Virus record (IMG/VR): IMGVR_UViG_3300027741_000218
Location: 1 to 27,807 of that record
Direction: 5' to 3' (one strand)
Length of the DNA: 27,807 nucleotides
From: a virus
Position 1 is the first letter of the stretch; each line of letters begins with the position of its first letter. Of the stretch, positions 16,380 to 27,807 are shown piece by piece. The notes beneath the pieces were generated by a model that had not been told where the DNA came from, ran no database searches, and saw nothing but the letters and a program-made list of their open reading frames with translations. The translations under genes were made by a program, and so were the position numbers.

Positions 16380-16383
16380 AAGT
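16355..16383 (+). promoter_or_regulatory. Rightward promoter, probably giving a leaderless cro-like mRNA
   Basis: Consensus TTGACA at 16355-16360, 17-bp spacer, TTAAGT at 16378-16383. Transcription would start near 16390-16391, at or just before the ATG at 16391, so the mRNA may have no leader. Confidence 0.6.
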
Positions 16384-16390
16384 GGCTGGC

Positions 16391-16585
16391 ATGACGAACC
16401 GTGACCCTATCATCCTAAAGGTGTTTGAACTGGCTGGAGGCGCATCTGCCCTGGCCAGGGAAATGTCTTTGACCCGTGCTGCGTTGTATAAATGGGAGAA
16501 AATCCCATTCAAGCATCTGCGCTTTGTTGCCTCTCGGACCAAAATTCCCAAGCGCGAGCTTAGACCTGATCTGTATGAGGACTAG
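16391..16585 (+). CDS. Cro-like / YdaS-type HTH repressor
   Basis: 64 aa from the ATG at 16391; a GTG three codons earlier is in frame but lies at the predicted -10 element. The HTH is plain: VFELAGGASALAREMSLTRA, then ALYKWEKIPFKHLRFVASRT, ending KIPKRELRPDLYED. This is the pattern of Cro and YdaS-type proteins (short first helix, AxGGxxALAxxM, SxxAVYKW). It sits at the head of the rightward operon next to the operator palindrome. No Shine-Dalgarno sequence is seen, consistent with leaderless translation. The inferred role is control of the divergent promoters. No CI-type partner is present in the window. Confidence 0.8.
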   Translation: MTNRDPIILKVFELAGGASALAREMSLTRAALYKWEKIPFKHLRFVASRTKIPKRELRPDLYED

Positions 16586-18016: not shown

Positions 18017-18114
18017 CTCATCAACGCAGCGACGGTGATTCGCTCGTCGGACTTGATAGAGTGTATACCTGTCTTTTCTGACGTATGCAAGTCGCCCCTA
18101 AAATGGGGTATCAA

Positions 18115-18426
18115 ATGTCCTTTCAAGCTATGGCGTGGGCTGTTAAGCAGCAAATATCTCCACGTGAAAAGTATGTTCTGATCATCATGGCAAACTACGC
18201 CAACGATAAGAGCAAGTGCTGGCCTTCCATCGCAACTCTTTGTTCTGACACGGGTTTTTCAAGAATGACAGTTGCGCGGGCTCTTGCGCAGTTGGAGAAG
18301 CTTGGGGCCATAACCGTGTCTAGGCGCGCTCACAAAAACATCAGGACAACAAGCATCTACCTACTCAAATTAGGGGCAAATTTTACCAAGGGTTCGTGCG
18401 GAGAAGAGCCTGAATCTTTTGGTTAG
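18115..18426 (+). CDS. HTH_36-type replication/regulatory protein (phage O N-domain like)
   Basis: 103 aa from the ATG at 18115, with GGGG a few bases upstream; ATGs at 18085 and 18103 are alternatives. The winged-helix pattern is clear: MAWAVKQQISPREKYVLIIM, ANYANDKSKCWPSIATLCSD, TGFSRMTVARALAQLEKLGA, then ITVSRR. This is the HTH_36 domain found at the N-terminus of phage O-like replication initiators. The protein is short, only the DNA-binding part plus about 30 residues, so it may act alone as an origin or promoter binder. It is followed by a 125-bp leader with palindromes and then the helicase. Confidence 0.75.
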   Translation: MSFQAMAWAVKQQISPREKYVLIIMANYANDKSKCWPSIATLCSDTGFSRMTVARALAQLEKLGAITVSRRAHKNIRTTSIYLLKLGANFTKGSCGEEPESFG

Positions 18427-23278: not shown

Positions 23279-23404
23279 GTCCTTGGTCCACTCTCGGTCC
23301 ATCGGTCCATCCTCGGTCCATCGGTCCACTCTCGGTCCATCGGTCCATCCTTGGTCCATTGGTCCATCAGCGGTCCATTGGTCCCTTGGTCCCTTGGTCC
23401 ATCC
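23279..23404. repeat. 19-bp tandem-repeat array built from GGTCCA units
   Basis: Units begin at 23294, 23313, 23332, 23351 and 23370 with consensus TCGGTCCATCGGTCCATCC; the first three are nearly identical, later ones diverge, and partial units flank them. Each unit contains two GGTCCA blocks. All reading frames through it are open only because it is repetitive. It could be an iteron, operator or centromere-like array. Confidence 0.85.
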
Positions 23405-26224: not shown

Positions 26225-26258
26225 AAAGGGGAAGGGGCGACTCTTCCCTTTCTTTTTT
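26225..26258 (+). terminator. Intrinsic terminator after the metallohydrolase gene
   Basis: AAAGGGGAAG (26225-26234) pairs with CTTCCCTTT (26243-26251) with one bulged G, followed by C and six T. It separates the cassette from the terminase small subunit. Confidence 0.8.
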
Positions 26259-26271
26259 GTCTGGCAAAGCC

Positions 26272-26277
26272 TATAAT
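26272..26277 (+). promoter_or_regulatory. Candidate -10 element upstream of the terminase gene
   Basis: A perfect TATAAT, 112 bp before the chosen terS start. No good -35 is seen at 16-18 bp, so either an activator helps or this is one copy of the dispersed CCCATTAT-type motif read on the other strand. Confidence 0.35.
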
Positions 26278-26388
26278 GGGTGCAGATACACCGATATGAG
26301 CACCAGCCATTCTAAGGCATGCTACGCGGCAAAGATTGCGGGAAGCTATCTAGGTATCGGGATAACGATTCAGGGCAAGGCAAGCTTC

Positions 26389-27009
26389 ATGGCTAGGGAC
26401 AAGACCGCAAAGCTATACAAGACTCGCGCTACGACAGGGCAAGAGGCGAATAAAGAAATAGGAGCGCGCCGCGCTGAAATACGGGAAAGCATCAAAGCAC
26501 GCATAGAGAAGGCAAAGGGACGCCCTACTACATTTAATGAGGAACAAGGAATAGAGCTATGTAAATTGATCAGCGAAGGGATGAGTCTAACGGAAGCTTG
26601 CGACTCATTGGGCTTGGCGAGAAGCACGGTGCTCACGTGGGCAGAGAGCGGCAATCAGCCTGCTTTTACGTCGAATCTCGCACGCGCACGGGAAGCCCTG
26701 GCCGAACATGCGTTCTCGGAAGCCTATGCGATACCTCGCAAATTACTGAAACTGTATGAAGAAGACCCTGAATTGAAACTCGATCCTGCACGGGTTCAAC
26801 TGGCAAGGCTCGCAACAGACACTCTCAAATGGTACGCGGAGCGCCTCAAACCCCGCACGTTTGGTGAAAAGAAAATTGAGCAATCTGTTACAATCACGAA
26901 CAATGCGCTTACAATTGACTCCCGCGAGCTATCGCAAGATCAACGTGACGCGCTACGTGGCGCTTTGCTGGCGGCCAAGAACCTACCTGTGACCATAGAT
27001 CACGAGTGA
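26389..27009 (+). CDS. terS: Terminase small subunit (Sf6-like)
   Basis: 206 aa from the ATG at 26389 with AAGG upstream. The frame is open from 26257 (250 aa), but the extra N-terminus lies over promoter-like DNA and lacks family signal. An N-terminal helical HTH domain (NEEQGIELCKLISEGMSLTE, then ACDSLGLARSTVLTWAESGN) is followed by NLARAREALAEHAFSEAYAI, LARLATDTLKWYAERLKPRT and FGEKK. This is the pattern of Sf6/SPP1-type small terminases: pac/cos DNA recognition, oligomerisation helices and a C-terminal large-subunit contact. No large terminase is inside the window; the DNA downstream is non-coding. The inferred role is choosing the DNA packaging site. Confidence 0.8.
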   Translation: MARDKTAKLYKTRATTGQEANKEIGARRAEIRESIKARIEKAKGRPTTFNEEQGIELCKLISEGMSLTEACDSLGLARSTVLTWAESGNQPAFTSNLARAREALAEHAFSEAYAIPRKLLKLYEEDPELKLDPARVQLARLATDTLKWYAERLKPRTFGEKKIEQSVTITNNALTIDSRELSQDQRDALRGALLAAKNLPVTIDHE

Positions 27010-27185
27010 CAAGTGTTTCTGTTGAGCCAAAGGTTGACACATTAGACAATGCTAATATACCAGAACCCATTGTGAGCCACGGTCCTCACACTAGGCGCTA
27101 CCGCTCGTTCTGGGCGCTTGCCCGGTTCAGGTACCCCGGCTCGAAATGGGCGGTCCCGGTCCATAGAACACCCCCTGGGTTTTAG
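27006..27185 (+). CDS. Possible 59-aa protein overlapping the terS stop (low confidence)
   Basis: A GTG at 27006 overlaps the TerS TGA (GTGA) and opens 59 codons ending at TAG 27183-27185. The translation begins VTSVSVEPKVDTLDNANIPE and ends with a basic aromatic stretch (RYRSFWALARFRYPGSKWAV). The overlap and a consensus -35 inside it make this ambiguous: it may be a coupled small protein, the remnant start of a downstream terminase gene, or chance. No family is recognised. Confidence 0.3.
   Translation: MTSVSVEPKVDTLDNANIPEPIVSHGPHTRRYRSFWALARFRYPGSKWAVPVHRTPPGF
27034..27061 (+). promoter_or_regulatory. Promoter reading into the candidate origin region
   Basis: Consensus TTGACA at 27034-27039, 16-bp spacer, TATACC at 27056-27061. 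No gene is obvious in the following 740 bp, so the product may be an RNA or a transcript activating the origin. Confidence 0.45.
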
Positions 27186-27294
27186 GCTCCCCTGCCTTCC
27201 CACCAGATTTTAACCCTATTCAAAATACATGATTAGAATCCAAATCCCGTTTTTCCCCACAAATTTTCCCAAAAAATTCTGGACCTGTGCAAAC

Positions 27295-27303
27295 TTATCC
27301 ACA
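27295..27303 (+). promoter_or_regulatory. Perfect DnaA box
   Basis: TTATCCACA, the consensus DnaA-binding 9-mer, lies 17 bp before the first iteron and just after an AT-rich stretch, the standard order for an iteron-type origin. Confidence 0.7.
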
Positions 27304-27319
27304 GGGTGCCCCCCCCTGG

Positions 27320-27372
27320 CTAGGCAGTACTACCTTTCCTAGACAGTACTACCGATACTAGGCTGTACTACC
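27320..27372 (+). repeat. Three direct iterons with 19-bp period
   Basis: CTAGGCAGTACTACC, CTAGACAGTACTACC and CTAGGCTGTACTACC start at 27320, 27339 and 27358, exactly 19 bp apart, each differing from the first by at most one base. The first iteron is shared in inverted orientation with 18504-18519. Confidence 0.85.
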
Positions 27373-27521
27373 TCCCTATGGTCCTTTGGTCCCTCCATAG
27401 TCCCTTACCCCCCCCCTATGGAAAATACGTACCCACAATGGGTTGTAGTGCTCAATCTGGGTTAGGGATCATAGGTAGTACTCTATCTCCCTGTACCCTG
27501 CATAAGGGATCATCCCTGAAC

Positions 27522-27537
27522 TGTTTCACGTGAAACA
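27522..27537. promoter_or_regulatory. parS: Perfect 16-bp chromosomal-type parS (ParB-binding) site
   Basis: TGTTTCACGTGAAACA, an exact 16-bp palindrome identical to the widespread chromosomal parS consensus bound by Spo0J/ParB. No parA or parB gene is in the window. A second palindrome (AGGGATCATCCCT, 27505-27517) lies 4 bp to the left. Confidence 0.9.
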
Positions 27538-27589
27538 TGCCTAGAACACCCTGTGTTGCCCTGGCCAGAAGCGTGGTCCAGACAAAGAA

Positions 27590-27620
27590 AAACCACCGAG
27601 GATTGCTCCAACGGTGGTTT
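27590..27620 (-). terminator. Intrinsic terminator (strongest on minus strand)
   Basis: AAACCACCG (27590-27598) and CGGTGGTTT (27612-27620) are perfect 9-bp arms with a 13-nt loop. Read leftward the stem is followed by TTTTTCTTTG, a good U-tract, so it likely stops minus-strand transcripts entering from the right. Confidence 0.7.
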
Positions 27621-27685
27621 CTGGCAACGGAGGCTGAATTCCATTTGCCCGATAACTCTATCACACCCATACGCCCGGTCAAGAA

Positions 27686-27719
27686 AAAGCCGCCAAAAGA
27701 TTACTCCCCTGACGGCTTT
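27686..27719 (-). terminator. Second leftward terminator
   Basis: AAAGCCG (27686-27692) and CGGCTTT (27713-27719) are 7-bp arms with a 20-nt loop. On the minus strand the stem runs into TTTTTCTT. Two consecutive leftward terminators suggest minus-strand genes lie to the right of the window. Confidence 0.6.
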
Positions 27720-27807
27720 CCCTGTTGGCCTGCCCGATCAACTTAAAGAGGATAGCACCCTAGAAGTCCTTCCACAACCTAGCAGCCTCTCCACAACTCA
27801 ATCAGCC

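Follow-up and report, generated by a model that had tools for sequence, protein, structure and literature searches.

The viral DNA analysed here (the window) is an entire linear IMG/VR record of 27.8 kb (27,807 nucleotides). Its gene content is podovirus-like: the left part encodes head, ejection and SLT-lysozyme functions, the middle is devoted to recombination and replication, and the gene for the small terminase subunit (terS) lies towards the right (Table 1). RusA, ERF, an exonuclease and an O-like initiator are all encoded in the window, and no full-length CI-type repressor was recognised among the scanned proteins. The noncoding region that follows terS, on the side where terL is missing, holds a 16-base palindrome of the kind to which chromosomal ParB binds, together with short repeats and a pair of hairpins.

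Table 1. Features of the window referred to in the text.
Feature	Position	Strand	Remark
YdaS/Cro-like small repressor	16382..16585	+	
Lambda-O-like replication initiation protein (HTH_36), predicted	18085..18426	+	
Tandem repeat array, 19/38-base unit GGTCCACTCTCGGTCCATC	23285..23403		gap between gene blocks
Terminase small subunit (TerS), Sf6-like	26257..27009	+	likely start ATG 26296; comparison anchor
Noncoding region, terS to missing-terL side	27010..27807	.	truncated by contig end
DnaA-box-like word TTATCCACA	27295..27303	+	kept in L122
Three iteron-like repeats CTAGGCAGTACTACC, 19-base spacing	27320..27373	+	
Chromosomal-type parS palindrome TGTTTCACGTGAAACA	27522..27537	.	perfect match
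Two adjoining terminator-like hairpins, one per strand	27592..27636		about 55 bases right of parS

The results showed that TGTTTCACGTGAAACA is an exact palindromic match to chromosomal-type parS (0 mismatches over 16 bases), as an earlier note on this DNA had described, and the further copies which that note proposed to look for are not found in the window, the site being the only match at three or fewer mismatches where shuffled sequences give an expectation of 0.08. The note had also put the likelihood of a chance occurrence at 6.5e-6; the arithmetic holds, but the figure is post hoc and carries little evidential weight, the real evidence being the conservation described below. No Rfam match was obtained. 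The hairpins on both strands suggest that transcription is convergent around the site, and no promoter was seen at parS in the window's terS-side gap. The suggestion that an adjoining candidate origin favours a role in segregation proved weak. Such an origin would rest on the DnaA-box-like word and the iteron-like repeats, but the closest relative, L122, clearly keeps just one of the repeats instead of the array, and the gene of the predicted O-like initiator is 9 kb away from parS. A replication origin at parS was rejected on these grounds together with the lack of a clear GC-skew switch and of any enrichment of DnaA-box-like words across the corresponding region in other relatives, and a lytic origin at the O-like initiator gene is more likely.

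Conservation of the site, which the earlier note had named as a check, was found in close and distant relatives alike. With TerS as the query, tblastn retrieved 13 viral loci, 12 of which carry one to five sites located 37-1235 bases downstream of terS, each site having at most one mismatch and each locus at least one exact copy; the contig of the thirteenth ends in the region where the site would be expected. With a TerS profile, sites were present in the terS-terL region of 19 of 31 loci. A TerL profile gave 80 loci, corresponding to 55 lineages after deduplication at 95% nucleotide identity, and parS was found in 30 of the 47 lineages with at least 1 kb of sequence upstream of terL and in 27 of the 33 in which TerL identity was also at least 75%. 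The relatives' copies occupy the region equivalent to 27010..27807 of the window, with L122 carrying parS in the same place, and in the longer relatives they are confined to the terS-terL region. Each parS-bearing lineage has one to five copies between the two genes, spaced irregularly (35-980 bases apart) and lying 68 bases to 4 kb from terL; an open frame of at least 100 amino acids, possibly spurious, overlaps 22 of 90 sites.

The distribution of mismatches was then compared between the two sides of the terL start in the 55 lineages. Upstream of terL (187 kb) there were 87, 12, 0, 0 and 4 copies at 0, 1, 2, 3 and 4 mismatches, respectively, the four-mismatch class being set against a chance expectation of 6.4, and in terL and the sequence downstream (279 kb) the corresponding numbers were 0, 0, 0, 2 and 13. 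The 99 upstream copies with at most one mismatch have 94 different left flanks and 96 different right flanks, which are almost devoid of information past one or two additional bases per side, and flanks that are nearly all different indicate that selection acts on parS itself. The one-mismatch variants are confined to central positions 6-10. As read from the sequences, this combination of mismatch spectrum, varied flanks and central-only variation is the signature of a putative binding site under direct selection.

On the TerL tree the presence of parS can be accounted for by 5-6 changes, compared with 14 when the labels are shuffled, and one clade has parS in 28 of 30 rows. The site is missing from several subclades in which the gene order is the same, so parS is not essential. 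Among the relatives that keep the terS-gap-terL order without parS are L149-L154, L156 and L159/L160/L165, which offer natural controls for a host comparison, and no substitute palindrome is conserved in place of parS among such relatives. We rejected the explanation that parS is placed here merely for want of other noncoding space, since equally large parS-free gaps occur in G005 and G004 (by crude gene calling). Genes for tRNA-Pro/tRNA-Gln were seen in relatives (L135, 3229-3392; L138, 9962-10037) and may help in host assignment.

Across the whole IMG/VR collection, the exact 16-mer occurs in at least 120 stretches, whereas a control palindrome with equal base composition gave three. Among the matches listed (at least 120), 37 encode a TerL that could be recognised, and in 16 of them parS lies about 140 bases or less from the terL start. 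Most of the terL-proximal stretches belong to a marine group like Pelagibacter phage HTVC027P, with TerL about 60% identical to that of HTVC027P. These distant cousins often have a single parS copy, usually 18-166 bases upstream of the terL start, falling on either side of a TATAAT-like element, and close relatives within the group may have or lack parS although the same upstream region and terL promoter are kept. The 50 kb of HTVC027P itself include a single one-mismatch site, which lies between terS and terL at 16412 (L178) among gp30-gp34; gp30, gp33 and gp34 reportedly show unusual expression timing, and the phage is obligately lytic by description (PMC12753301). In L097 (around 309-349) the terL promoter region contains an exact parS with another perfect palindrome, TGTTCCACGTGGAACA, next to it, and the pair is also present in L257.

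The exact 16-mer was found in 286 of 50,697 named phage records, and the control palindrome in none. It recurs in Listeria, Lactobacillus, Roseobacter, T5-like, phi29-like, actinobacterial, inovirus and microvirus records. Intergenic gaps contain the sites of Ruegeria phage DSS3P8, Woes, Nubia, Arian and Vibrio phage phi 3 and most copies of bajarodino virus 6, and ParB_N had no match in any of these inspected phages; in Listeria P100-like records the 16-mer falls in an annotated gene, and the cases are not all alike. Bajarodino virus 6 (L174, PQ006149.1), a 5.9-kb inovirus without ParB, has six exact copies, at 635, 662, 1414, 2857, 4096 and 5628, and is a possible small model for the use of host ParB by an episomal phage. 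The B. subtilis phage Chedec 11, of 18 kb, has two parS sites. In the T5-like Vibrio phage phi 3 (L176), parS is located in the terminal repeat between A1 and A2, and a one-mismatch site is present too (2934, 821).

No match to ParB_N, AAA_31 (ParA), tyrosine integrase or resolvase was found in the window or in the longer relatives, including records of 45-47 kb; fragmentary records could hide a gene, but several records together span the gene order. The earlier note's remark that no partition genes are in view therefore extends to the longer relatives tested, and a phage ParB acting on a different site of its own, which that note had considered as a refutation, was not found in the window group, so that a phage-encoded ParB was rejected there. 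ParB_N did match in 4 of 50 records in a mixture of window-group relatives and other parS-bearing viral records. No complete ParABS partition system was found, neither ParB nor ParA being matched in the records tested, some of which are fragments, and the genes scanned include an O-like initiator but no recognised plasmid-type replication or maintenance gene. The absence of an integrase in the window group also fits a virulent phage, and no lysogen was seen.

A search for possible hosts in 84,980 species genomes gave no match with the TerS profile, and the TerL profile matched a phage-like MAG contig of 45 kb and a contig of 42 kb whose TerL is 56% identical. The 45-kb relative, from the betaproteobacterial MAG G068, has the same gene order (TerL 70%, TerS 44%) and a one-mismatch site 616 bases before terL. 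In the chromosome of G068, an exact parS lies 2 kb from parB in an mnmG-rsmG-parA-parB-atp locus, and this locus supplies the only ParB found in the MAG. The second contig, binned in a Methylococcales MAG, lacks parS, as does the MAG as a whole at one mismatch or fewer. Both phage-host links rest on binning and are tentative. Of the proposal in the earlier note that host ParB is borrowed for inheritance as a phage-plasmid, the borrowing is well backed by the selected site, the lack of detected par genes and the parAB locus of the MAG with its exact parS. The phage-plasmid part fared less well, as integrase, par and plasmid-type replication genes were not found and the nearest described cousins are characterised as obligately lytic (PMC12753301); stable inheritance of this kind is possible but unsupported.

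Taken together, recruitment of host ParB by the phage is the most likely reading of the sequence data. We put at about 0.5 the probability that TGTTTCACGTGAAACA in the window phage is a genuine host-type parS kept by selection, through which host ParB is recruited and the phage DNA handled like a chromosome origin. Host ParB-CTP would bind each parS copy, close as a clamp and slide onto neighbouring phage DNA, bringing ParA and SMC, and in alphaproteobacteria also MipZ, to the phage genome. Loading and sliding at the phage sites are inferred by analogy with the known ParB biology (loading, sliding, and recruitment of ParA and SMC) and with the link between MipZ and ParB (PMC7333895). With less certainty as to the benefit, unintegrated phage DNA in the cell would be treated like a chromosome origin and so be tethered, distributed, compacted or retained across a division in the course of a slow infection or a carrier state. 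What the phage gains from host ParB may be the placement or retention of its DNA, the loading of SMC, the timing of transcription or the sequestration of ParB. Somewhat more tentatively, the par-less parS of unrelated phages could represent piracy of the centromere machinery within lytic infection, where ParB-CTP clamps, SMC and ParA would aid the placement, expression or packaging of DNA. Against recruitment stand the weakness of binning as evidence for the host link, the subclades that share the gene order without the site, and the sites overlapped by open frames. The long-term inheritance part is further weakened by the description of HTVC027P as obligately lytic and by some of the other parS-bearing named phages, which we take to be virulent.

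Another use of host ParB would be as a transcription cue, with clamps spreading over terS and terL and restraining or timing the late genes until replicated DNA dilutes ParB. The usual position of the HTVC027P-like copy just upstream of terL, beside the TATAAT-like element, and the intergenic sites of several named phages agree with such a cue, and in a study of Pseudomonas aeruginosa promoters adjoining parS were reportedly repressed by ParB (PMC5521831). We nevertheless consider it unlikely. Control of a promoter is disfavoured because the promoter context varies and the window site, in an apparently convergent region, stands before hairpins on both strands without a promoter; moreover, parS is missing from close relatives in which the terL promoter is retained. 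A clamp-loading site is preferred over a promoter operator because copy number, spacing and distance to the genes all vary. Still less probable is a sequestration role, in which replicating DNA with up to five parS copies would titrate ParB and halt origin segregation or, via MipZ, division: multi-copy arrays on DNA that multiplies in the cell and the known link between MipZ and ParB would suit it (PMC7333895), but many lineages have a single copy, and sequestration gives no reason for a constant position next to terS and terL. In a packaging role, condensin loaded by ParB at parS would act next to a presumed packaging start and help to order concatemers for the terminase. The constant terS/terL neighbourhood in two distantly related groups and the Sf6-like TerS speak for this packaging role; phages with the same terminase exist without parS, however, and we regard it as improbable.

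Readings in which the host protein has no part fare worst. The site could be the operator of a phage-encoded regulator that equals parS by coincidence, and regulatory-looking gaps hold it in phages that do encode HTH proteins, but an exact 16-base chromosomal consensus with tolerance at the centre only, recurring in unrelated phages of many hosts, makes this very improbable. A chance match or an assembly chimera with the host chromosome, which the mere 270 bases between parS and the contig end might have suggested, is ruled out by the conservation in L122 and many independent contigs.

The site type itself is known, and what appears to be new here, on the sequence evidence, is a wide group of freshwater and marine phages with the parS of bacterial chromosomes and no detected par genes. 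No description of such a group was found in the open-access literature searched, nor any earlier mention there of parS in HTVC023P/HTVC027P-type pelagiphages. To our knowledge, the centromeres reported from phages until now are private sites, served by ParA/ParB that the phage itself encodes. If the proposal is true, chromosome segregation in the host would count among the host factors of phages, a new explanation would be at hand for parS sites that stand alone on mobile DNA, and a simple genetic test would be available in the growth of phages in parB-null hosts; parB-null B. subtilis is viable.

Among known systems, the HTVC023P/HTVC027P-type pelagiphages resemble the window group in having related TerL and structural genes and in the splitting of terS and terL by small genes and gaps, and differ from it in their single copy, in relatives usually placed right upstream of terL. 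The lambdoid lytic replication module shares with the window the O-like initiator, RusA and ERF/exonuclease, whereas the window has no integrase or recognised full-length CI-type repressor. Phages with a complete private parABS are already known (PMC7157519), and P1, N15 and mycobacteriophage RedRock (PMC7157519) have, like the window group, a centromere site and no integrase; these phages encode ParA/ParB and use private repeat-type parS, in contrast to the chromosomal parS without detected par genes of the window group. Chromosomal ParABS (Spo0J/ParB-parS) has the same 16-base consensus as the phage sites, the same central-only variation and similar clusters of one to five sites within about 1-2 kb, and the difference lies in the phage parS being without detected parA/parB, so that the protein acting on it would be the host's.
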